This document shows positions 13,353 to 24,102 of a DNA stretch of 62,095 bases, one piece after another. The notes beneath the pieces were generated by a model. It did not search any database. It was not told the origin of the DNA and worked only from the letters and a program-made list of their open reading frames with translations. The translations under genes and the position numbers were made by a program. Location: positions 1 through 62,095 of the forward strand of contig JAPLME010000010.1 of NCBI GenBank assembly GCA_026387175.1. Direction: 5' to 3'. The DNA is from Candidatus Omnitrophota bacterium (GTDB lineage Bacteria; Omnitrophota; Gorgyraeia; 2-01-FULL-45-10). The first letter of the stretch is position 1; every line of letters begins with the position of its first letter.

Positions 13353-13479
13353 AAATGGTTACCAAGGTCAGCTATTTCTTACCTGTATAGTCAGAAGTAT
13401 TGAATTTGTAAAATAAGCACTAGGCAGTGTTTTAATACAACGACGTTCCATTCTTCATAGAAGAAGGAACGTCGTTGTA
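13353..13479 (+). promoter_or_regulatory. Nitrogen-island leader motif, copy A
   Basis: Four parts in order. Stem AAATGGTT (13353-13360) with AGCTATTT (13370-13377) around the loop ACCAAGGTC. Box TTACCTGTAT (13379-13388). Small hairpin CACT/AGTG (13418-13429). Long hairpin 13436-13479, containing GACGTTCC and GGAACGTC. The same order recurs at 16735 and 20575. It precedes the truncated porin gene. Confidence 0.5.
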
Positions 13480-13483
13480 TTTA
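13436..13483 (+). terminator. Terminator-like hairpin of leader A
   Basis: A nearly perfect hairpin of twenty pairs: TACAACGACGTTCC (13436-13449) and TTCTTC (13451-13456) pair with GAAGAA (13460-13465) and GGAACGTCGTTGTA (13466-13479) across an ATA loop. The tail TTTAT is only weakly T-rich. It ends either the upstream gene or, as attenuator, the leader transcript. Confidence 0.6.
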
Positions 13484-13513
13484 TAATAGTTAGGACAGGA
13501 AGGAGGATCCAAT

Positions 13514-14653
13514 ATGAAAATGATCAAATTCGTTATTATCGCGGTCTGTTGCGTGCTTGCGATAACATTCACCAATACATTACTGCACGCTGATGAAAAT
13601 GCGCCGCTGATGAACGCTTTGGATGAGATAGGACTGGCCGAACCATTGAACAAGGCAGGAATCAATATCTACGGCTATGCTGAAGGCGGTTGGTTTTATG
13701 ATGCCACTTCGCCTCATAAAGGATCGGGCCCAACCTTCATCGGATATAACAACTTCAAAAGCGATATCACTCTTGATAAAGTAAGTTTGAATGTCGAACG
13801 CACGGTCGATCCAACAAAAAAACAGTTTGACGTGGGCGGCCGTATAGAAGGTATCTTTGGCGCGGATGCCGCGTTCATCCACTCGAATGGTATGTGGGAT
13901 ATTCAAACGGGTCACAACCAATGGGACCTTCTCCAGGCCTATGTGGATGCGGCTCTCCCTTATATACCGGTACGGCTCCGATTCGGTAAATGGATCGAGC
14001 TCGCCGGTTTCGAGCAATTCAGCGCAAATATTTACGGAGCTTTCGGTGATCCGGCCAGGGCGCTATATTCTTATAGTTACCAGTTCCTCTATGCTGAGCC
14101 GGGCACTCAGACCGGTCTTCTGGCCACCTACGTGCTGAATCCGCAATGGACGTTTGACGTTGGTACCACTTTAGGTTGGAACCAATCACTTCGCGATGCC
14201 AATCATGCTCTCGATTTCCTGGGCCGCGCGACTTTTACGCCCAGCGATAGGACTACCGTTATTTTCACGATGACGGAAGGCCCGGAGTTCCCGATCGGCG
14301 TCGGACACAATCTGTCTCCCGGTGATAACGCCAACTGGTGGACTGCCCTGGACTTAGTTATCACCCAGAAGATCAATGACAAATTGAGCCTCGGCCTGGG
14401 CACTGACTATGTTGAGACTCCGAAGATCCCCGGATTACAGGATAAGGCCAAACAATGGGGAGGTGTTGCCGGCTATGCCAGTTACGCGCTTGATCCGCAT
14501 CTTACCCTGAATACCCGCCTGGAATGGTATAAAGATGCGGCTGGCGGTTTCTCCACCGGTGCGCCTGTCGGTGCCAATTATTACGAAATAACGGAGGGAT
14601 TAGCTATCAAACCGTTCCCGAATGACAAAAACCTCAATTTCATTGACTTTTGA
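13514..14653 (+). CDS. Beta-barrel porin (BBP2-like), C-terminally truncated paralogue
   Basis: 379 residues with a signal peptide ending near LHA-DE and a well-placed AGGAGG at 13501-13506. It is a close paralogue of the 433-residue porin at 19249: long stretches such as INIYGYAEGGWFYDA, NNFKSDITLDKVSLNVERT and LAGFEQFSANIYGAF are shared almost unchanged. The general form is that of the OmpL-like porin family BBP2. After KPFPNDKNL the two sequences part: this copy ends with NFIDF and stops, while the other has the final two strands and a terminal LITF. It also lacks a short linker near residue 30. A barrel without its last strand pair may not assemble, so this may be a decaying copy, though it still has a leader and ribosome-binding site. 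Confidence 0.75.
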   Translation: MKMIKFVIIAVCCVLAITFTNTLLHADENAPLMNALDEIGLAEPLNKAGINIYGYAEGGWFYDATSPHKGSGPTFIGYNNFKSDITLDKVSLNVERTVDPTKKQFDVGGRIEGIFGADAAFIHSNGMWDIQTGHNQWDLLQAYVDAALPYIPVRLRFGKWIELAGFEQFSANIYGAFGDPARALYSYSYQFLYAEPGTQTGLLATYVLNPQWTFDVGTTLGWNQSLRDANHALDFLGRATFTPSDRTTVIFTMTEGPEFPIGVGHNLSPGDNANWWTALDLVITQKINDKLSLGLGTDYVETPKIPGLQDKAKQWGGVAGYASYALDPHLTLNTRLEWYKDAAGGFSTGAPVGANYYEITEGLAIKPFPNDKNLNFIDF

Positions 14654-14673
14654 TATATTAGGTATAATATATC
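14643..14673 (+). promoter_or_regulatory. Promoter with palindromic operator
   Basis: A perfect TATAAT (14663-14668) with TTGACT 14 bases upstream (shorter than the usual 17) lies inside the perfect palindrome GATATATTA (14652-14660) and TAATATATC (14665-14673). The palindrome is a likely repressor site. The hairpin at 14678 follows at once, so transcripts starting here would meet a terminator before reaching the permease gene at 14730. Confidence 0.35.
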
Positions 14674-14677
14674 AACA

Positions 14678-14707
14678 AAGCCTCTGCTATGTAAGCAGAG
14701 GCTTTTT
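14678..14707 (+). terminator. Rho-independent terminator
   Basis: AAGCCTCTGCT (14678-14688) pairs perfectly with AGCAGAGGCTT (14694-14704) across a five-base loop and runs into TTTTT. It ends the truncated porin transcript, or attenuates the next gene. Confidence 0.85.
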
Positions 14708-14729
14708 AATAAAGTAGAGTACCAAAATT

Positions 14730-16721
14730 ATGTCTAATAGATTAAGGGATAAGATAAACAGGATCAAGTGTTTTGTGTTGGGCAGAGCCTGTGACATAAA
14801 AGACCCGCGGCTCTTCCACAGGCTTTCCCTGATCGCCTTTTTTGCATGGATCGGCCTCGGCGCTGACGGATTGTCTTCCTCATGTTACGGTCCGGAAGAA
14901 GCTTTTCTTGCGCTTCAAGGCCATATATTCCTGGGTATATTTGTAGCAATCGGCACGGCGTTGACCATTTTGATAATAGCCGCAAGCTACAGTCAGATAG
15001 TCGAGCTCTTCCCCGGGGGAGGCGGAGGATATCTCGTCGCGAGTAAGCTTCTTTCTCCGCAGCTCGGCATGATATCCGGCTGCGCCCTTCTGATAGATTA
15101 CGTATTGACGATCACCCTTTCCATATCAAGCGGCGCCGACGCGATATTCAGTTTTCTGCCGCCAAGTTGGATCATCTATAAACTTCCTTTTGCCGTATGC
15201 GGCCTTCTTCTTCTGATAGTATTAAACCTGAAGGGCGTTAAAGAATCCGTTCTACCCCTTGTGCCCATATTTCTCACCTTCATTATCGCCCATGTCTTTG
15301 CCATTTTATACGGATTTTTCACTCACCTCATGGATTTCGGAGCCCTTGCCCAATCCACCAGGGCCGACATCGGACAGACATATTCTCAATTAGGCACGAT
15401 GGGTATAGTCCTGCTGATAATGCGTTCATACAGCATGGGAGCCGGAACGTACACAGGTATAGAAGCGGTCAGTAACGGTGTGCCTATTTTGCGGGAGCCG
15501 CAGGTGAAGACCGCGAAAAAGACGATGTTCTATATGGCAATTTCTCTTGCTTTCATGGCATTCGGCCTTATGGTCAATTACCTTCTCTACAGGGTACAGC
15601 ATGTGCCCGGCAAGACCCTCAATGCCGTTTTAATGGGAAGCGTAACTGCCGGATGGGATCCCCATATCGGCGGCACATTCGTTCTCATCACGCTTTTATC
15701 TGAGGGCATTCTGCTTTTTGTGGCCGCGCAGACAGGTTTTCTGGACGGGCCCCGTGTTCTGGCGAACATGTCGGCCGACCGCTGGTTTCCGTTCCAGTTC
15801 GCGCTTTTAAGCGAACGCTTTGTGATCAAGCATGGAATAGTCCTGATGGGTTTAGCCTCGCTTACCCTGATGATATTCAGCCGCGGCTCTGTCAAGTTCC
15901 TCGTCGTCCTGTATAGCATAAACGTCTTTATAACATTCTGTCTTTCTCAGGCCGGCATGGTTCGTCATTGGTGGAAAAGCCGGTTCGGCCCGGACCCATG
16001 GAGGAGAAGGCTTGCCGTGAACGGTATAGGCCTGATATTGACGGTATTTATTCTTGTTATGGTCATCGTGATCAAGTTCGGCGAGGGCGGATGGATAACG
16101 CTTATCATGACAGGATCATTGGTAGCCGTCGCGGCGGGCGTGAAAAGATATTATCGCAGGACGCAGAAAATATTGAAAAGGCTTGATAAGCTTGTATATA
16201 CGGTCGAGGCATACCAGGAAAAAAGTTCGGATGTCAAACAGAGCGTTCCAGGTTTTGATGAGACTTCGAAGACGGCGGTTATACTGGTCAATGGATTCAA
16301 CGGCATGGGGCTGCATACATTATTCAGCGTAGTGAGGCTCTTCGGCGATACGTTTAAGAATTTTGTGTTTATGGAGGCGGGGATAATAGACGCGGGCAGC
16401 TTTAAGGGAACCGACGCGATAGATGCCCTGAAGGAGAAGATCAGCGTCGATCTGTCGCGATATGAAAATTATATGCGCGAGCAGGGATTTTTTGCGACGA
16501 CATATTCCGCGATAGGTCCGCATGTCATAGACGAGATATCCACGATGGCGCGCAAGGTCTACGAGAAATATCCGAACTGTATATTTTTCGGCGGACAGAT
16601 AGTTTTCGATGAGGAAAGCTATCTGGACAAATTCCTGTATAATCATGTGACCTTTGCGGTGCAGAAAAGATTGCATCAAGAGGGTATGCCTTTTATGGTA
16701 ATGCCGATACAGGCCGGTTAA
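14730..16721 (+). CDS. APC-superfamily permease, KimA-like (probable K+ importer)
   Basis: 663 residues. The first 465 or so form an APC-fold transporter with about twelve spans; landmarks are GADGLSSSCYGPEEAF in the first span (the GADGLSS signature of the KimA/YdaO-type group), ELFPGGGGGYLVA in the third region and GAGTYTGIEAVSNGVPILREP. The remaining 190 residues are a soluble cytoplasmic domain (from VILVNGFNGMG on) as in KimA, where it helps regulate transport. Known members import potassium by proton symport; older annotation calls them amino-acid permeases, and I cannot tell substrate from sequence alone. The start has no strong ribosome-binding site. It sits in the nitrogen island but has its own upstream terminator. 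Confidence 0.75.
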   Translation: MSNRLRDKINRIKCFVLGRACDIKDPRLFHRLSLIAFFAWIGLGADGLSSSCYGPEEAFLALQGHIFLGIFVAIGTALTILIIAASYSQIVELFPGGGGGYLVASKLLSPQLGMISGCALLIDYVLTITLSISSGADAIFSFLPPSWIIYKLPFAVCGLLLLIVLNLKGVKESVLPLVPIFLTFIIAHVFAILYGFFTHLMDFGALAQSTRADIGQTYSQLGTMGIVLLIMRSYSMGAGTYTGIEAVSNGVPILREPQVKTAKKTMFYMAISLAFMAFGLMVNYLLYRVQHVPGKTLNAVLMGSVTAGWDPHIGGTFVLITLLSEGILLFVAAQTGFLDGPRVLANMSADRWFPFQFALLSERFVIKHGIVLMGLASLTLMIFSRGSVKFLVVLYSINVFITFCLSQAGMVRHWWKSRFGPDPWRRRLAVNGIGLILTVFILVMVIVIKFGEGGWITLIMTGSLVAVAAGVKRYYRRTQKILKRLDKLVYTVEAYQEKSSDVKQSVPGFDETSKTAVILVNGFNGMGLHTLFSVVRLFGDTFKNFVFMEAGIIDAGSFKGTDAIDALKEKISVDLSRYENYMREQGFFATTYSAIGPHVIDEISTMARKVYEKYPNCIFFGGQIVFDEESYLDKFLYNHVTFAVQKRLHQEGMPFMVMPIQAG

Positions 16722-16734
16722 CTGTGCTTAAGAT

Positions 16735-16842
16735 AAAGGTTACCAGGATCAACCTTTTTTTACTTGTATTAATGTAGGCTCGCATAGCTGCGAAAAGAGA
16801 CATAGGCGTTCCAAGATGATAAGGAACGCCGTTTTTATTTTT
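16735..16842 (+). promoter_or_regulatory. Nitrogen-island leader motif, copy B
   Basis: Stem AAAGGTT (16735-16741) with AACCTTT (16751-16757) around the loop ACCAGGATC. Box TTACTTGTAT (16760-16769). Small hairpin CGCA/TGCG (16781-16792). Terminator hairpin GGCGTTCC/GGAACGCC (16805-16830) with a T-rich tail. Compared with copy A the stem bases change but pairing is kept. It precedes the APC-P-II fusion gene by about 110 bases. Confidence 0.5.
16805..16842 (+). terminator. Terminator hairpin of leader B
   Basis: GGCGTTCC (16805-16812) and GGAACGCC (16823-16830) form an eight-pair stem with a ten-base loop, followed by GTTTTTATTTTT. This is a classical rho-independent terminator between the KimA-like gene and the fusion gene. 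Confidence 0.8.
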
Positions 16843-16951
16843 CAATCAGATGTAAGACTGTGGCGTCATTTTATCCACGATGGATGGAATGGCGCTTTTT
16901 AATTTTTATCGGCTGAATGTGTAAGTAAATATGAACGAGGAGGGCCTGAAC

Positions 16952-18829
16952 ATGTATGAAAAAGGAATGATAGAGGTAAGTCCGGTAAAGCCCAAGCTTG
17001 GGCTATTGGGCGCGACTATGAATGCTATGGCGCTGATCGCGCCCGGCGCTTTTTTGTGGATCAGCTACCAGCTGCAAGCCGCTGCTACCGCTCCGAACGG
17101 AACATCCGTGGCAAATGATACGTGGGCGGGTATAGTCGTAGCGCTGATCGTAGCGTTTCTTACAGCTCTTTCATATGCCCAGCTCGCAAAGATATATCCT
17201 GAAGCCGGATTCGCTAGCTGTTGTTATTTCGCTGAAAGAGCTTTCCTGGATGGAGAAGGCGAAAATAAGAGATTTACTACACCACATTCATTAGCCCGCA
17301 TCGCGAAGCTTGTTACAGGATGGGCAGCCCACCTCTTCTACTGGGTATATCCCGGGATCATGGTCGCTATGATGGCCACTATGATAGGGTACATCTATAC
17401 ACAGTTTACAGGACACACGTTATCAAGCGTAAACCTGGTTATCATAGGAACCGTCTTTGCGGCTGTAATAGGCTACATTGCTTTCCGTGGAATAACGGGG
17501 TCAACCGTTACCTCTATCTGGATAAATATAATTCAGCTTGTGACATTAGTTATATTCAGCGGCCTGGCTATCGGCTATCGTATCTTGAATCCACAGCATG
17601 CCTCTCAATGGTCTTTCGGCGGAACCTGGGATGTGGTGCGTCCGCATACTTTTGAAGGGGTCCTGATCCAGTCTACTCTGGCTATCCTTATATTGGTCGG
17701 ATTTGAAAGTTGCACTTCTCTGGCCGCTGAGACCAAGGAGCCCGAGACCACAATTCCTAAAGCGATCATACTCTCTTTGATCATTCAGGGGCTCTTCGCG
17801 TATCTGTTAGAGTATTTCGCGGCGGGTTTTATGATCAGTGACAAATTGGCGGGCACAGCTTCCGGGACGGCGGTTAACGGAATAGCTGCCGCGGCGGCAT
17901 CAGGTGCGCCAATCGGCGACCTTACGAAGCTTATAGGCGATAGCATGCTCGGAGGTATAGGATTTGGCCTGATGATCACTATGGCAGTCACCGTAGCCAT
18001 CGCTATAATAGGTACTACGTTGAGCTGCATGAATACGGCCGTTCGCGTGACCTGCGGCATGGCGGAGCACAGAGAGCTGCCTAACTTCTTAAGTTTTATA
18101 CACGGCGAATTTATTACACCGCACATGGCGATCGTAGTGCTGGTTATAGTCTCCTCTATAATAGCGGCTGTCGGGGTGCAATCGGTTGTAGGGCTGATAG
18201 GCATAACGCTTGCCTCGAACCTGGGCACATTCGTGCTTTATGGGCTCACTTGTTTTTGGACAATAGTCGCCTTTAAGAGAAGGGCGGACTTTAACATTTT
18301 GAAGCACGGGATCATCCCGGTTTTAGGCATCATAACCAACGTGATCATGACCGTAGCGATAATTTATCTGTATATAATAGGTAATGCCGACGCGAAGGCA
18401 GAAGCGAAGATATGTTTTATCATAGCAGGCGCATGGGCCGTCATAAGTCTTGCATATATCGGTATAACCACGTTCAGGAAGACTAATACTTTAAAGATGG
18501 TCTCGGCTATGATACGCCCTGAATCGCTCGGCATATTAGTTGAAATCTTAAAGGAAGAAGAGATGGTAGAGGGTATGACGGTAACAAAGGTAAAGGGGTT
18601 CGGCAAGCAAAAAGGCCAGACAGGTAACGGCCCTCAAACCGACAGGATCTCTTTCATACCAAAGGTAAGAGTCGATGTAGTTGTCAGGGAATGGGACGTC
18701 CCTCATATTATGGCCGTTATACGGGACGCTACGAATACCGGTCAGGCAGGGGACGGAAAGATATTTGTTCTTGACGCGACAGAGGCTATGCGTGTCCGAA
18801 CAGGAGAGAAAGGCATCTGCGCCGTATAG
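16952..18829 (+). CDS. APC amino-acid permease fused to a P-II signalling domain
   Basis: I start at ATG 16952, seven bases after GAGGAGGG, not at the in-frame ATG 16931. Residues 1 to about 490 are an APC amino-acid/polyamine/amine permease (GLLGATMNAMALIAPGAFLW, then AKIYPEAGFASCCYF, then GFESCTSLAAETKEPETTIP). From about residue 515 to the end is a complete P-II domain: SAMIRPESLGILVEIL, GKQKGQTG, and the ATP-binding [20 protein letters not shown] with RTGEKG. The T-loop (GQTGNGPQTDRISFIPK) has no tyrosine, so control by uridylylation is excluded and any control must be by ATP/ADP/2-oxoglutarate binding. P-II normally plugs Amt from outside the chain; here the regulator is covalently attached. 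A free P-II gene follows 33 bases on. Confidence 0.92.
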   Translation: MYEKGMIEVSPVKPKLGLLGATMNAMALIAPGAFLWISYQLQAAATAPNGTSVANDTWAGIVVALIVAFLTALSYAQLAKIYPEAGFASCCYFAERAFLDGEGENKRFTTPHSLARIAKLVTGWAAHLFYWVYPGIMVAMMATMIGYIYTQFTGHTLSSVNLVIIGTVFAAVIGYIAFRGITGSTVTSIWINIIQLVTLVIFSGLAIGYRILNPQHASQWSFGGTWDVVRPHTFEGVLIQSTLAILILVGFESCTSLAAETKEPETTIPKAIILSLIIQGLFAYLLEYFAAGFMISDKLAGTASGTAVNGIAAAAASGAPIGDLTKLIGDSMLGGIGFGLMITMAVTVAIAIIGTTLSCMNTAVRVTCGMAEHRELPNFLSFIHGEFITPHMAIVVLVIVSSIIAAVGVQSVVGLIGITLASNLGTFVLYGLTCFWTIVAFKRRADFNILKHGIIPVLGIITNVIMTVAIIYLYIIGNADAKAEAKICFIIAGAWAVISLAYIGITTFRKTNTLKMVSAMIRPESLGILVEILKEEEMVEGMTVTKVKGFGKQKGQTGNGPQTDRISFIPKVRVDVVVREWDVPHIMAVIRDATNTGQAGDGKIFVLDATEAMRVRTGEKGICAV

Positions 18830-18862
18830 TAATAGAAAAATATTTTTAACGGGGGTATTAAT

Positions 18863-19201
18863 ATGAAAAAAATAGAAGTGATTATTCGCCCGACTAAAGT
18901 CGGCGATGTGTGCACTGCTCTGGATCGGGCGGGCCATCCCGGTATCATGATTACCGAGATCGAAGGCCATGGAAAACAGAAGGGTATAGAGCAAAAGGTG
19001 CGGGGCAAAACATACAAAGTGGATTTAATCACCAAGGCGCGGATAGAGATTGTGGTTAAGGATGGAGATGTCGATAATATAGTTAAAGCTGTCCGTGAAG
19101 CCGCTTTTACGGGTGAAGTTGGAGATGGGAAGATATTTATCTATCCGGTAGCAGATGCCGTGAGAATACGCACCGCTGAAAGAGGAGATATTGCGGTATA
19201 G
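18863..19201 (+). CDS. P-II family nitrogen regulator
   Basis: 112 residues, the standard P-II length. Seen: IEVIIRPTKVGDVCTAL at the start, GHGKQKG before the T-loop, the B-loop TGEVGDGKIFIYPV, and RTAERGDIAV at the end. In the T-loop, position 46 is Val but position 51 is Tyr (VRGKTYKVDL), the residue that is uridylylated in enteric GlnB. P-II proteins are trimers that bind ATP or ADP and 2-oxoglutarate and control transporters and glutamine synthetase. Position right after the APC-P-II fusion suggests that it may act on that permease, or even form mixed trimers with its fused domain. Confidence 0.93.
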   Translation: MKKIEVIIRPTKVGDVCTALDRAGHPGIMITEIEGHGKQKGIEQKVRGKTYKVDLITKARIEIVVKDGDVDNIVKAVREAAFTGEVGDGKIFIYPVADAVRIRTAERGDIAV

Positions 19202-19217
19202 TTAAACATGCTATAAT
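19191..19217 (+). promoter_or_regulatory. Extended -10 promoter before the porin gene
   Basis: TG-C-TATAAT (TATAAT at 19212-19217) with a weak TTGCGG 15 bases upstream. It overlaps the end of the P-II gene and would allow the porin to be made separately from the permease operon. Confidence 0.45.
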
Positions 19218-19248
19218 GTGCTCGTTATAAAATAAAGGAGGATGGAGC

Positions 19249-20550
19249 ATGAACCTGTTAACAAGGGGACCGTTGAAAAATTTTAAATTCATTGTTGCCG
19301 TAGCTTGCTGCGCGCTCGCGGTAATATTTACAAACACATTACTGTATGCTGATGAAAATGCACCGGCAGTTACATCCACACCGGCGGATGGACCGTCACT
19401 TGCGCCGTTGATGAGCGCTTTGGACAAGATAGGATTGGCCGAGCCCTTGAACAAGGCGGGGATCAATATCTACGGCTATGCTGAAGGCGGTTGGTTTTAT
19501 GATGCCACATCACCCCGTAAAGGAGTCGGTCCGACTTTCATCGGATATAACAACTTCAAAAGCGATATCACTCTTGACAAGGTAAGTTTAAATGTCGAAC
19601 GCACGGTCGATCCGACAAAAAAACAGTTTGATCTGGGCGGCCGCATAGAGGGTATATTTGGTGCGGATGCCGCTTTCATCCACTCGAATGGTATGTGGGA
19701 CACCCAAACGGGTCACAACCAATGGGACCTTCTCCAGGCCTATGTGGATGCGGCACTTCCTTATATACCTGTGAAACTGCGTGTCGGTAAATGGATTGAG
19801 CTAGCCGGTTTCGAGCAATTCAGTGCTAATATCTACGGGGCTTTCGGTGATCCTATGAGGGCGCTCTATTCCTATAGTTACCAGTTCTTATACGCCGAGC
19901 CCGGAACGCAGACGGGCGCTTTTGCTACCTATGTGCTGAACCCTCAATGGACATTTGATGCCGGCTTCACGCTTGGATGGAACCAGTCTATTCGTGATTC
20001 TAACCAGGCTATTGACTTTCTAGGCCGTGCGACATGGACACCCAGCGATAAGACTTCCGTTATTTTCGTGATGACAGAAGGCCCGGAATTCCCGATCGCT
20101 GTTGGGCACAATATACCTCCAGGTGACCACAAAGACTATTGGACCGCCTTGGACTTGGTTGTCACTCAGAAGATCGATGACAAATTGAGCCTTGGCTTGG
20201 GCACTGACTATGTTGAGACTCCGAAAATCCCAGGCTTACAAGATAAGGCCAAGCAGTGGGGCGGTGTAGCTGGTTATGCTAGCTATGCGATCGATCCCCA
20301 TTTTACGCTGAACACCCGGCTTGAGTGGTATAAAGACGCCGCTCAGGGTTTTTCCACCGGTGCGCCTGTTGGCGCCAATTACTATGAGGTTACAGGCGGT
20401 GTGGCCATAAAACCGTTCCCGAATGACAAGAATCTATCCCACTTGCTCTTCCGTCCGGAAATTCGCTACGACCACTCTGACCGGTCGGTCTTTAGTACCG
20501 GCGAACGCGATCAGTTGACATTCAGCACGGACGCTCTCATCACTTTCTAG
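19249..20550 (+). CDS. Beta-barrel porin (BBP2-like), full-length paralogue
   Basis: 433 residues. AAAGGAGG at 19234-19241 fixes the start. A signal peptide of about 40 residues ends near LYA-DE, followed by a Pro/Ala-rich linker (APAVTSTPADGPSLAP), a plug-like helix (MSALDKIGLAEPLNKAG), then barrel strands to the terminal FSTDALITF. It shares most of its length with the truncated copy at 13514 and probably represents the parent form. I assign BBP2/OmpL-like porin by general appearance. Being encoded between a P-II gene and the Amt operon, it likely serves as outer-membrane entry pore for ammonium or amino compounds, which is inference from position. Confidence 0.8.
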   Translation: MNLLTRGPLKNFKFIVAVACCALAVIFTNTLLYADENAPAVTSTPADGPSLAPLMSALDKIGLAEPLNKAGINIYGYAEGGWFYDATSPRKGVGPTFIGYNNFKSDITLDKVSLNVERTVDPTKKQFDLGGRIEGIFGADAAFIHSNGMWDTQTGHNQWDLLQAYVDAALPYIPVKLRVGKWIELAGFEQFSANIYGAFGDPMRALYSYSYQFLYAEPGTQTGAFATYVLNPQWTFDAGFTLGWNQSIRDSNQAIDFLGRATWTPSDKTSVIFVMTEGPEFPIAVGHNIPPGDHKDYWTALDLVVTQKIDDKLSLGLGTDYVETPKIPGLQDKAKQWGGVAGYASYAIDPHFTLNTRLEWYKDAAQGFSTGAPVGANYYEVTGGVAIKPFPNDKNLSHLLFRPEIRYDHSDRSVFSTGERDQLTFSTDALITF

Positions 20551-20574
20551 CGGGGTGCTGAGAAAGAAAATTTA

Positions 20575-20705
20575 TAAAAAAGTTACCAAATTTAACCATT
20601 TTTTACTTGTATACTTAAAAGCATTGGATTTGTAAAACAAACACCGTGTAGTGTTTAAAACAATGACGTTCCATTCTTCCATGAAGAAGGAACGTCATTT
20701 TATTT
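20575..20705 (+). promoter_or_regulatory. Nitrogen-island leader motif, copy C
   Basis: A-rich arm plus GTT (20582-20584), loop ACCAAATTT (20585-20593), AAC (20594-20596) and a T-rich arm; box TTACTTGTAT (20603-20612); small hairpin AAACAC/GTGTTT (20639-20656) with loop CGTGTA; long hairpin 20662-20699 containing GACGTTCC/GGAACGTC. It resembles copy A over most of its length and precedes the HTH-amt-glnK-glnA genes. Confidence 0.5.
20662..20705 (+). terminator. Terminator-like hairpin of leader C
   Basis: AATGACGTTCC (20662-20672) with TTCTTC (20674-20679) pairs with GAAGAA (20683-20688) and GGAACGTCATT (20689-20699), followed by TTATTTAT. It could end the porin transcript or attenuate the amt operon. 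Confidence 0.65.
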
Positions 20706-20727: not shown

Positions 20728-20907
20728 ATGGTAAATAATGAGCTTATAGAAAAGGTCAGGTTGTTCAAGGAGCAAAATGGATACACTCTTCATGAGTTGT
20801 CCAGGAAGATCGATATACAGGTGCCGACGCTGCAGAGGTGGCTGAAAACGGGCCATATAAATAAAGTGTATGCGGATGTTGTAAAGGAGCGTTTGGGAAT
20901 AAAATAA
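20728..20907 (+). CDS. Small helix-turn-helix protein (59 aa)
   Basis: A 59-residue frame between leader C and amt, with AAGGG a few bases before its ATG. The sequence IEKVRLFKEQNGYTLHELSR, then KIDIQVPTLQRWLKTG, is a helix-turn-helix of the XRE/homeodomain-like kind: a turn before the recognition helix (VPTLQRWL) and a basic C-terminus (KERLGIK). It has no other domain, so it would act as a dimer on a palindrome or assist another regulator. Lying in front of amt and beside the box TTACTTGTA (found inverted at 20953-20961), it may control this operon; that is a guess. Confidence 0.6.
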   Translation: MVNNELIEKVRLFKEQNGYTLHELSRKIDIQVPTLQRWLKTGHINKVYADVVKERLGIK

Positions 20908-20993: not shown

Positions 20994-22229
20994 ATGATTA
21001 ATTCAGGAGATACAGCGTGGATCTTGATGTCAACAGCACTTGTGATGCTGATGACGGCGCCCGGCCTGGCCTTTTTTTACGGCGGCCTGGTAAGAAGAAA
21101 AAATGTTTTGGCTACAATGATGCAGTCGTTCTTTGTACTATGCTTAATAAGCATTCAATGGATACTATGGGGGTATAGCCTATCTTTCGGGCCCGATAAG
21201 GGACATTTGATAGGAAGCCTGGCATGGTGCGGACTTAAAGGTGTTACCATGATACCCAATCCCGATTACTCGTCAACTATACCGCATTTACTTTTTATGG
21301 TGTACCAGATGATGTTCGCGGTAATTACTCCAGGACTAATAACGGGCGCGTTCGCGGAAAGAATGAAGTTTTCAGCCTACGCTATCTTTACTCTGTTATG
21401 GGCAACTTTGGTTTACGATCCTATCTGTCATTGGGTATGGGGTGCAGGCGGATGGTTAAGAAATATGGGTGCGCTTGATTTCGCCGGCGGCACAGTAGTC
21501 CACGTATCATCAGGTATAGCCGCACTGGTCTGCGCGCTCTATCTCGGCAAAAGACGAGGCTACGGTAAGGAACCAATGCCGCCGCATAACCTTCCTCTGA
21601 CAATTCTTGGAGCGTCTTTGCTCTGGTTCGGATGGTTTGGGTTTAACGCGGGATCTGCCCTTGGTTCCACTGAATTGGCTGTCTGGGCATTCATCGCTAC
21701 TAATACCGCTGCAGCCGCAGCCGCGCTGACATGGATGTTTATAGAGTGGAAGGTGACCGGCAAACCGACGATTCTAGGCGGAGCGACCGGCGCGGTCGCG
21801 GGATTAGTTGCAATAACTCCAGCCTCAGGATTTGTTTCTCCGCTATCCGCGATACTCATAGGAATAGCGGTAGGCTTTGTTTGTTATACCGCCGTAGCGG
21901 TAATTAAATTGAAACTCGCATACGACGATAGTTTGGACGCGTTCGGTGTCCACGGCGTAGGCGGGACGCTCGGGGCTCTTTTAACCGGCTTCTTTGCTCA
22001 GAAACTTATCAATCCTGCCGGAAATAACGGATTATTCTTTGGAAATCCCGGGCAGCTTGGGATTCAGTTTATAGGAGTTGCAGCTACAGCGGTGTACTCA
22101 ATAGTAGTTACTTTTATATTGTTAAAAGTCGTTGATGCTATTGTTGGCCTAAGGGTTCCGGATGAAGAAGAGGTAATTGGGCTCGATATCACTCAGCACG
22201 AAGAGAGCGCATATACATTACTAGATTAA
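20994..22229 (+). CDS. amt: Ammonium transporter Amt
   Basis: 411 residues with eleven hydrophobic spans, the normal Amt/MEP size. Recognisable are MTAPGLAFFYGGLVRRKN, then ITGAFAERMKF, DFAGGTVVHVSSGIAAL (the His of the central twin-His pore is in GGTVVH) and DAFGVHGVGGTLGAL (second pore His). It forms a trimeric inner-membrane ammonium channel. RBS: GGGAAGGGG before the ATG. The adjoining glnK gene is the universal genetic partner: GlnK plugs Amt when cell nitrogen is high. The order HTH, amt, glnK, glnA forms one operon. Confidence 0.97.
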   Translation: MINSGDTAWILMSTALVMLMTAPGLAFFYGGLVRRKNVLATMMQSFFVLCLISIQWILWGYSLSFGPDKGHLIGSLAWCGLKGVTMIPNPDYSSTIPHLLFMVYQMMFAVITPGLITGAFAERMKFSAYAIFTLLWATLVYDPICHWVWGAGGWLRNMGALDFAGGTVVHVSSGIAALVCALYLGKRRGYGKEPMPPHNLPLTILGASLLWFGWFGFNAGSALGSTELAVWAFIATNTAAAAAALTWMFIEWKVTGKPTILGGATGAVAGLVAITPASGFVSPLSAILIGIAVGFVCYTAVAVIKLKLAYDDSLDAFGVHGVGGTLGALLTGFFAQKLINPAGNNGLFFGNPGQLGIQFIGVAATAVYSIVVTFILLKVVDAIVGLRVPDEEEVIGLDITQHEESAYTLLD

Positions 22230-22241
22230 GGAGGAGATACA

Positions 22242-22583
22242 ATGAAGCTTATTACGGCAATTATACAACCGCATAAACTGGAGGATGTCCTGAAAGAATT
22301 GGATAAAGCAGAGATCTATTTGAAGACTGTGAGCAACGTGCTTGGCTGCGGCAGACAAAAAGGGATAACGCAAGTTTATCGCGGCAGAAAAGAGACTGGC
22401 GGGCTACTCAAAAAGATCCGGTTGGAGATCGCCGTTAATGAAGCCTTCGTCAAACCTACCATAGACGCCATAATGAAGGGTGCCAAGACCGGCAATATCG
22501 GCGATGGTAAAATTTTCGTTCTCGATCTTCATGAATGTATAAGGATACGAACCGGCGAGAAAGCCGATGTCGCGATCGGTTAA
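22242..22583 (+). CDS. glnK: P-II protein GlnK
   Basis: 113 residues, 12 bases after amt with GGAGG in between. Start [15 protein letters not shown], then [15 protein letters not shown]-loop [15 protein letters not shown]-terminus [11 protein letters not shown]. In the T-loop Tyr46 is present but position 51 is Glu ([13 protein letters not shown]), so the enteric uridylylation site is missing; the GLLKK ending is like archaeal-type GlnK. Predicted job: block Amt when 2-oxoglutarate is low and possibly act on the glutamine synthetase encoded next. Confidence 0.95.
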
Positions 22584-22599
22584 CAAAAGGAGGCAGCAA

Positions 22600-24102
22600 A
22601 TGGCAAAGAAAAAAGCGACGGTTGAGATCAAGACCAAAAATCCGCTTGTGAATGGCTCATTCGATGAGAAGGCCGCAAGGGATGTTCTCAAATTGATCAA
22701 AGAAAAAAACATTCAGATAATAGATCTGAAGTTCAATGACCTACCGGGCCTGTGGCAGCACTTTTCTATACCTGCAAGGGAAATGCTGGATATGGATGAT
22801 ATTACGAGATCCATCTGGGTTGATGGTATCGGCTTCGATGGCTCTTCGATAAGAGGCTTTCAGAAGATACAGGAATCGGATATGATATTAATACCGGATC
22901 CGGATACTGCCGTGGTCGATCCGGTATGCGAAGTCCCAACATTAAGCATCATATGCGATATCTATGATCCGCTTACCAGGAAGGCCTATTCGCGCGATCC
23001 GAGATATATAGCCAAAAAGGCGGAGAAATATCTGAAGTCGACAGGGATAGCCGATACGATTTACTTCGGCCCTGAGGCTGAGTTCTTCATCTTCAACGAT
23101 GTCCGGTTCGACCAGACTGAGAATTCCGGCTACTACTTTATCGATTCTCAAGAGGCCGATTGGAATACGGGCAGGGTAGAGAATCCTAACCTTGGATATA
23201 AGATACGCTTCAAGGAAGGGTATTTCCCGGTTCCGCCGCACGATTCCATTCAGGACCTGAGAAGCAGGATCATCCTGAAGATGATAGAATCAGGCATTAA
23301 CGTCGAAGTCCACCATCATGAAGTCGCAACCGCCGGCCAATGTGAAATTGACATGAAGTTTGATACACTTCTGAAGATGGGCGACAACCTCCTTCTCTAT
23401 AAGTATATAATTAAAAATATGGCGAAGAAGAATAATATGGTCGCGACCTTTATGCCAAAGCCTCTATTCGCGGATAATGGATCCGGCATGCATTGCCATC
23501 AGAGCCTCTGGAAGAACGGCACAAACCTCTTTTATGATAAGAACGGTTATGCGCTGCTCAGCCAGATGGCGAAATATTACATAGGAGGCTTACTTAAGCA
23601 CGCCAATAGCTTGATGGCCTTCTGTGCGCCAACCACCAATTCTTACAAGAGGCTGGTACCGGGTTACGAAGCTCCTGTAAACCTTGTCTATTCAGCAAGA
23701 AACCGCTCGGCGGCCGTAAGAATACCTATGTATTCCGACAGTCCTAAATCGAAGAGGATAGAGTTTCGTCCACCTGACCCGGCCTGTAACGGCTATCTGG
23801 CGTTTAGCGCCATGCTAATGGCTGGACTAGACGGCATACAAAACAAGATCGATCCCGGACATCCGACGGATACCGATCTCTTCGACTTGAGCGAAGAAGA
23901 GCTCTCGAAGATACCGACAGTGCCTTCATCTCTAAGACGCGCTGTCGATGCTCTTGAAGCCGACCACGAATATCTATTAAAAGGCGGCGTCTTCACCAAG
24001 GATGTCATCGACGTATGGCTTGAATTTAAGAGGAAGAGAGAGATAGACCCTGTAAGGATGAGGCCGCATCCGTACGAATTCTATCTCTATTTTGATATCT
24101 AA
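22600..24102 (+). CDS. glnA: Glutamine synthetase, type I
   Basis: I use ATG 22600, behind a strong AAAGGAGG (22586-22593); an earlier in-frame ATG at 22567 overlaps glnK and lacks a site. 500 residues: a basic N-terminal tail, then [55 protein letters not shown] and [19 protein letters not shown], all type I catalytic motifs. It makes glutamine from glutamate, ammonium and ATP. At the adenylylation loop, enterics have NLYDLP; here it reads DLFDLS, so the modified Tyr is Phe and adenylylation control is absent. Last gene of the amt operon, followed by strong terminators. Confidence 0.97.

Follow-up and report, generated by a model that had tools for sequence, protein, structure and literature searches.

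The usual explanations of nitrogen control are sigma54/NtrC, GlnR/TnrA or NtcA. Leaders targeted by proteins with an ANTAR domain are also known in front of nitrogen genes, namely those for P-II proteins, ammonium transporters and the synthesis of glutamate and glutamine (PMC3369931). Such targets consist of two mini-hairpins with six-base loops (hexaloops), in which A at loop position 1 (A1), G at position 4 (G4) and a closing C:G pair are preferred and the second hairpin lies at the base of the terminator (PMC3369931, PMC7496416); by the time of Ramesh et al. 2012 (PMC3369931), no GAF-ANTAR protein had been characterised. In the nas system of Klebsiella, the Ntr system (sigma54/NtrC) drives initiation and the ANTAR protein NasR drives antitermination (PMC5424462). 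Here we analyse a stretch of 62,095 nt, called the window below, from a Candidatus Omnitrophota genome (contig JAPLME010000010.1 of assembly GCA_026387175.1, the source genome), in which three leaders, copies A, B and C, stand in a nitrogen island. From sequence comparison across the phylum, we consider it likely that these leaders are two-gate control regions, in which initiation dependent on a dedicated sigma factor would be followed by GAF-ANTAR antitermination of a nitrogen-assimilation regulon.

Control of Klebsiella nas appears to be the closest functional analogue, since both systems would have two successive gates, regulated initiation and then ANTAR antitermination. The Omnitrophota arrangement would differ in that its first gate is a small sigma70-family sigma factor, resembling those of extracytoplasmic function (ECF), with its own -35 and -10 boxes, and in that it targets general ammonium assimilation rather than nitrate. 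The leaders share dual hexaloops and the overlap with the terminator with known ANTAR targets (EutV/eut in Enterococcus, NasR/nasF in Klebsiella, AmiR/amiE in Pseudomonas). They are set apart by their Omnitrophota host, a presumed GAF-ANTAR reader, two classes of linker between the mini-hairpins (3-12 nt and 16-28 nt), tandem modules in some leaders and a conserved promoter-like element before most of those studied. The putative sigma factor, for its part, is like ECF sigma factors (TIGR02937) in its length of ~180 amino acids (aa), its sigma2 and sigma4 regions, the proximity of its gene to a target promoter and the bipartite form of that promoter; unlike the usual case, its partner genes encode GAF-ANTAR, NadE or glutamine synthetase (GS), and its regulon would be nitrogen assimilation. 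Searches of the open-access literature turned up neither a description of this promoter or of how Omnitrophota control nitrogen, nor one in which ANTAR nitrogen leaders are paired with a dedicated sigma factor. The dedicated sigma factor and its promoter thus appear to be new, whereas ANTAR nitrogen leaders are already known.

The promoter-like motif and its candidate sigma factor

An earlier reading of the window, made from the sequence only, had described each copy as a single RNA element that begins with a hairpin with the loop ACCARRNTY (stem 1) and the box TTACYTGTAT. The box is indeed exact at 13379, 16760 and 20603, yet hairpin and box together are most likely a promoter-like DNA element read by a dedicated sigma factor. 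A pattern built from the three copies, allowing at most 3 mismatches, matched 12 of 146 related genomes and had zero matches in controls; the left part was GTTACCA and the right part TTACTTGTA, or nearly so, in all 12. Relaxed to GTTACCA-N{8,22}-TTACYTGTA and run on 384 genomes of the phylum, the pattern occurred 169 times, in 85 of the genomes, and rarely in controls. Although spacers of 8-22 nt were permitted, the spacer is exactly 14 in nearly all matches. Motif-bearing genomes have about 1-5 exact promoter-like sites each, and the named records among them are almost all Candidatus Omnitrophota.

The motif, GTTACCA-N14-TTACTTGTA, consists of two unlike boxes at a fixed spacing and is not a dyad. 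In a logo of 104 sites the information is confined to the two boxes and their edges, which are T-rich before TTACTTGTA and show a weaker TGTAG ~5 nt downstream; the same logo has no conservation in mid-spacer and no conserved element upstream of the motif. The first RNA hairpin starts at least 3 nt (median 14-18) after the motif. All this fits a promoter: the boxes are unlike, their spacing is constant, they form no dyad, and the first RNA hairpin comes soon after them. A sigma-70 consensus scan found no promoter at the motif, with totals equal to those of shuffles, and the GG-N10-GC spacing of sigma54 promoters is absent from it. The source genome has four sites at no more than 1 mismatch, those of copies A, B and C and a fourth (D) behind the sigma gene, and a scan of this genome at 2 mismatches found no further site.

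It is against this background that the claim for stem 1, that pairing is kept while the bases differ between copies, has to be judged. Copies A and B are both able to form a 7-bp stem 1, but what is invariant in relatives is the letters of GTTACCA and TTACTTGTA, and the 3' arm of the claimed stem lies in the non-conserved spacer of constant length. At least 4 pairs in the claimed register are found at 14 of 103 sites in relatives. Exchanging the arms at random among the sequences gives 12.7 ± 1.6, and 616 of 2000 such permutations yield 14 or more. An apparent excess in a within-spacer shuffle (14 versus 6.3) vanished under this permutation, which keeps the column composition. Because permuted arms pair as often as the observed ones and the 3' arm belongs to the spacer, stem 1 is not a selected RNA hairpin, and that copies A and B can both pair here is chance agreement between two copies. 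The covarying stem and the box, offered as RNA evidence for an attenuator, were therefore misread promoter-like DNA, and we give next to no credence to the reading as one RNA element, a nitrogen attenuator whose stem 1 covaries under selection.

The candidate for the factor that reads the motif is encoded close by. In relatives, the last gene before the first motif encodes a protein of ~180 aa with sigma2/sigma4 signatures, and in many of them an ANTAR gene lies 1-3 kb before that motif on the same strand. TIGR02937 matched 12 of 12 members of this group (the first at 48.8 bits against a cut-off of 42.9), and Sigma70_r2 or _r4 exceeded the cut-off in some. The source genome has one copy (G000:C7:122026-122541, minus strand) in the order ANTAR - NadE - sigma, 2 kb from the gene for its only ANTAR protein, a GAF-ANTAR protein of 265 aa. 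An AlphaFold model of the sigma protein is of low confidence (predicted template modelling score 0.42), and its Foldseek list consists mostly of sigma factors (best E 1.5e-3, none <1e-3). On its domain matches, we take the protein to be a small sigma factor of the sigma70 family that resembles ECF factors. A Pfam scan of the genes neighbouring it showed no anti-sigma factor.

Of 59 loci, 50 have the motif -18 to +93 nt from the sigma stop codon, at a median distance of 4.5 nt; the same interval holds a motif for 26 of 789 other long open reading frames. The exact motif is present in 58 of the 62 genomes with a sigma match of at least 190 bits and in 9 of 42 at lower scores. Twenty loci chosen because sigma is present and the exact motif absent mostly have GTTACCA-N14-TTACTT with an altered end (ATG, ATA, TTA, others). 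Motif and sigma thus seem to diverge together, which is the expected outcome if the sigma factor reads the motif. For the promoter-like site behind the sigma gene, the -35-like box lies inside the last sigma codons (..GYQN-stop = GGT TAC CAA AAT TGA) in the source genome as well as in several relatives from its family. Alternatively, an activator or repressor could bind DNA at the motif, for example a Fis-type HTH_8 protein or another nitrogen regulator, and the housekeeping sigma factor could read the promoters; regulators with helix-turn-helix (HTH) domains (HTH_8, AsnC-type) are encoded in or beside the regulon, and the sigma link is built on genome position and co-occurrence. We regard this as unlikely, given that the motif is no dyad, that it has unlike boxes at a fixed 14-nt spacing, that it occupies, ahead of the first RNA hairpin, the place required of a core promoter, and that it starts right behind the sigma stop codon in most loci.

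No Sigma54_DBD was found in the source genome, in a scan in which the controls matched. Some sigma-positive relatives carry sigma54 too, and the idea that the new factor replaces sigma54 throughout the phylum was rejected for that reason; we do not claim a general replacement. Two genomes from the genus of the source genome, G001 and G002, have ANTAR and sigma54 and no detectable dedicated sigma factor, and G002 retains one motif copy, before a porin gene, so that gain and loss of the sigma layer inside one genus are possible. Among records with other labels, a metagenome-assembled genome labelled Proteobacteria (L171) has the motif, the sigma gene and two ANTAR-matching stretches, and one from Elusimicrobia UBA5214 (L181), whose leader structure differs, carries the motif in front of amt, P-II and glnA. 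Spread beyond Omnitrophota and mislabelled bins are both possible explanations.

ANTAR-type leaders and the genes behind them

The part of each copy that follows the motif does look like regulatory RNA. Across 108 leaders, compared with dinucleotide shuffles, the order after the motif is a mini-hairpin (P1), a second mini-hairpin (P2) and a terminator that has the 3' side of P2 in its 5' arm. P1 is typically ACAC or GCAC / hexaloop / GTGT or GTGC, and P2 GAAC or GAC / hexaloop / GTTC or GTC. Among hairpins of at least 4 bp before the terminator, a loop size of 6 is the most enriched (70 of 99 versus 20.6 ± 4.1 in shuffles, z 12.1), and the P1 loops have G4 in 56 of 70 and A1 in 38 (G at position 1 in 21). 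P2 overlaps the 5' arm of the terminator in 86 of 107 leaders, with G4 in 74 of these 86 loops and A1 in 55 (G at position 1 in 26). Of the 108 leaders, 78 have G4 and a closing C:G pair in both hexaloops (shuffles: 0.7 ± 0.8), and 44 have A1 in both as well (shuffles: 0.0 ± 0.2). The linkers between P1 and P2 fall into the two length classes given above. Since the hairpins had been chosen by pairing, the P1/P2 covariation alignment is biased towards structure, and we rely on the loop-size and shuffle tests instead. Many leaders (copy B, L110, L104, L059 and others) are tandem attenuators, in which the first terminator is followed by a second module made of a hexaloop hairpin GAC-NNNGGC-GTC and another terminator-like hairpin.

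Because these features match published ones (PMC3369931; PMC7496416), what had been described as a small hairpin plus terminator would be an antiterminator target of the ANTAR type. The proposal of a protein-sensing nitrogen attenuator is in this respect well supported by equal leaders before nitrogen genes in relatives, even though the stem-1 evidence first given for it was wrong, and the type of attenuator can be named, on comparative grounds, as probably ANTAR. A different reader of the same leaders could be a ligand, for example glutamine, bound by a riboswitch that controls the terminators. Glutamine riboswitches are known for genes such as glnA and amt, and a leader-terminator architecture precedes just these genes here. 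However, no Rfam family reaches its gathering score in the window, and even at E <= 5 none of the matches there is to a riboswitch that senses glutamine or another nitrogen compound. The leaders, moreover, have two mini-hairpins of 3-6 bp and a poorly conserved linker in place of a large conserved aptamer, and the same genome encodes a matching RNA-binding protein. A riboswitch is accordingly highly improbable.

In relatives, the genes directly behind the motif encode BBP2 porins, amt, glnK or P-II, glnA, GS type III, HTH_8 plus gltB, and amino-acid permease (APC)-P-II fusions, in keeping with the expectation that such leaders stand in front of nitrogen genes there. A covariance-model search had also been proposed earlier. 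The model, built from 22 relatives with the source-genome copies excluded and run over the whole source genome, had three top matches (leaders D, E and F), all significant (E < 0.002) and all before nitrogen genes. That E and F have no sigma motif implies that the two gates are usable separately. These leaders also bear on another view, in which read-through is not regulated and the hairpins, as plain terminators, close off either the transcripts before them or short non-coding RNAs. Hairpins of this kind do sit between genes, and in copies A and C the next gene follows the terminator by 25-35 nt with no other obvious promoter, where processing would also be possible. Yet the terminator trails the motif by at most 170 nt in 107 of 108 leaders, upstream of start codons, P2 is built into its 5' arm as in known ANTAR leaders, and ANTAR-type leaders without the sigma motif precede GS type III and amt as well. 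Plain termination is thus very unlikely.

Two further loci show how motif, leader and genes are combined. In the source genome (L143 3787-4856, minus strand) the sigma gene is followed by genes for a class-I glutamine amidotransferase, a Fis-type HTH protein and GS type III; relatives have a similar HTH_8 protein before gltB. Another locus (L267, G317:C45) has three successive amt-glnK pairs, with motif-plus-leader units before two of them and further motif sites around; this is repeated duplication of a whole control-plus-gene cassette.

Leader copies and genes of the nitrogen island

The three leaders lie where the sequence-only reading had placed them, and the genes behind them are those it had named: a BBP2 porin gene, an AA_permease and P-II fusion, and HTH-amt-glnK-glnA (Table 1). 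It was also right about the terminator hairpins with GTTCC/GGAAC, present after the box in all three copies, and about the likeness of copies A and C, which are 78% identical across ~150 nt. It had overlooked P2 (16799-16810 in copy B, 20659-20670 in copy C, weak in copy A) and the second terminator module of copy B (16856-16896). By its features copy B would be a canonical ANTAR leader, copies A and C divergent ones; the linker between P1 and P2 is about 5-6 nt in copies B and C. The two porin genes are close duplicates. The product of the first has 379 aa, against 433 aa for the second, is shorter at its C-terminus, and ends in ..NLNFIDF; its gene is followed by a strong terminator and may be a truncated or decaying copy.

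Table 1. Positions of leader elements and genes in the window, with related sites elsewhere in the source genome
Feature	Position	Strand	Basis or remark
Copy A promoter-like element GGTTACCA-N14-TTACCTGTAT	13357..13388	+	motif statistics; 1 mismatch in -10-like box
Copy A P1 AAGCAC-TAGGCA-GTGTTT	13415..13432	+	hexaloop, G4, closing C:G; position 1 T, not A
Copy A intrinsic-terminator-like hairpin AATACAACGACGTTCC/GGAACGTCGTTGTATT	13434..13481	+
Copy A weak P2 AC-AACGAC-GT	13437-13446	+	2 bp only; in terminator 5' arm
Porin gene, BBP2 family, behind copy A	13514..14653	+	Pfam-type domain match
Copy B promoter-like element GGTTACCA-N14-TTACTTGTAT	16738..16769	+	exact
Copy B P1 TCGC-ATAGCT-GCGA	16780..16793	+	hexaloop, A1, G4, closing C:G
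Copy B P2 GAC-ATAGGC-GTT	16799..16810	+	hexaloop, A1, G4, closing C:G; 3' side in terminator 5' arm
Copy B terminator GGCGTTCC/GGAACGCC with T tract	16805..16842	+	hairpin 16805-16830
Copy B second module, GAC-TGTGGC-GTC hexaloop hairpin	16856..16903	+	overlaps second terminator-like hairpin
Copy B second terminator-like hairpin with T tract	16862-16896	+
Gene for amino-acid permease (APC, AA_permease) fused to P-II, behind copy B	16931..18829	+	domain match
P-II protein gene	18863..19201	+	resembles P-II genes of relatives; one operon with APC-P-II
Second porin gene, full length	19249..20550	+	one operon with APC-P-II
Copy C promoter-like element AGTTACCA-N14-TTACTTGTAT	20581..20612	+	exact core
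Copy C P1 AAACAC-CGTGTA-GTGTTT	20639..20656	+	G4, closing C:G; position 1 C
Copy C terminator-like hairpin AAAACAATGACGTTCC/GGAACGTCATTTTATT	20657..20704	+
Copy C P2 AAC-AATGAC-GTT	20659..20670	+	A1, G4, closing C:G; overlaps terminator
Gene for small HTH protein, 59 aa, first behind copy C	20728..20907	+	domain scan
amt, ammonium transporter	20994..22229	+	homologues in relatives
glnK (P-II)	22242..22583	+	homologues in relatives
glnA, glutamine synthetase	22567..24102	+	homologues in relatives
-35-like box inside sigma 3' end	L143 5012-5026 (G000:C7 ~122.0 kb)	minus
Leader D, behind sigma gene, before class-I glutamine amidotransferase (GATase)			motif present
Leader E, before GS type III			without sigma motif
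Leader F, before second amt			without sigma motif

Proposed two-gate control of nitrogen assimilation

Taken together, these data suggest the following model. At the first gate, the dedicated ECF-like sigma factor would direct RNA polymerase to GTTACCA-N14-TTACTTGTA as -35 and -10 boxes, and transcription would start a few bases past the -10 box. At the second gate, the nascent leader would by default fold into the intrinsic terminator. The GAF-ANTAR protein, switched at its GAF domain by a small-molecule or nitrogen signal, would bind both hexaloop mini-hairpins; because P2 uses the 5' arm of the terminator, this binding would stop the terminator from forming, so that amt-glnK-glnA, APC-P-II and the porin genes are transcribed. 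Since the genes controlled serve ammonium uptake and assimilation, we suspect that the signal is nitrogen status and that the regulon is activated when nitrogen is scarce.

Several observations weigh against this model. On the side of the sigma factor, G002, which belongs to the same genus and is 96% complete, has the motif and an ANTAR gene and no detectable sigma gene. Up to 18 motif-bearing genomes have no sigma match, although some of them lie outside the sigma sample, among them G003, which does have a sigma gene, and the co-occurrence of sigma and motif was counted without phylogenetic correction. On the side of the leaders, the linker is 16-28 nt long in many of them, beyond the 5-12 nt of EutV targets (PMC3369931), and the covariance-model scores of the window copies are non-significant (C 9.2, B 8.3 and A 6.7 bits). 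In copies A and C, position 1 of P1 departs from the consensus A and the U tracts that follow are interrupted, and P2 of copy A has 2 bp. Assigning copies A and C to the ANTAR type accordingly draws on their position, family context and partial features, and is best regarded as provisional.

In its broader form, the two-gate model would mean that in many Omnitrophota a dedicated ECF-type nitrogen sigma factor does the job of sigma54/NtrC and is coupled to a GAF-ANTAR protein, with one locus (ANTAR-sigma) controlling both initiation and elongation for the whole ammonium-assimilation regulon, a proposal whose chances we would put at about even. If it is true, the ANTAR-sigma locus would be a previously undescribed organisation of global nitrogen control. 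What the analysis yields is a promoter on which a new sigma group can be tested, a predicted regulon across many uncultured genomes and a defined set of target RNAs for a GAF-ANTAR protein. A nearly uncultured phylum would thus display a compact circuit that is readable from its genomes, in which a small sigma factor is tightly linked to its promoter and to an ANTAR leader.

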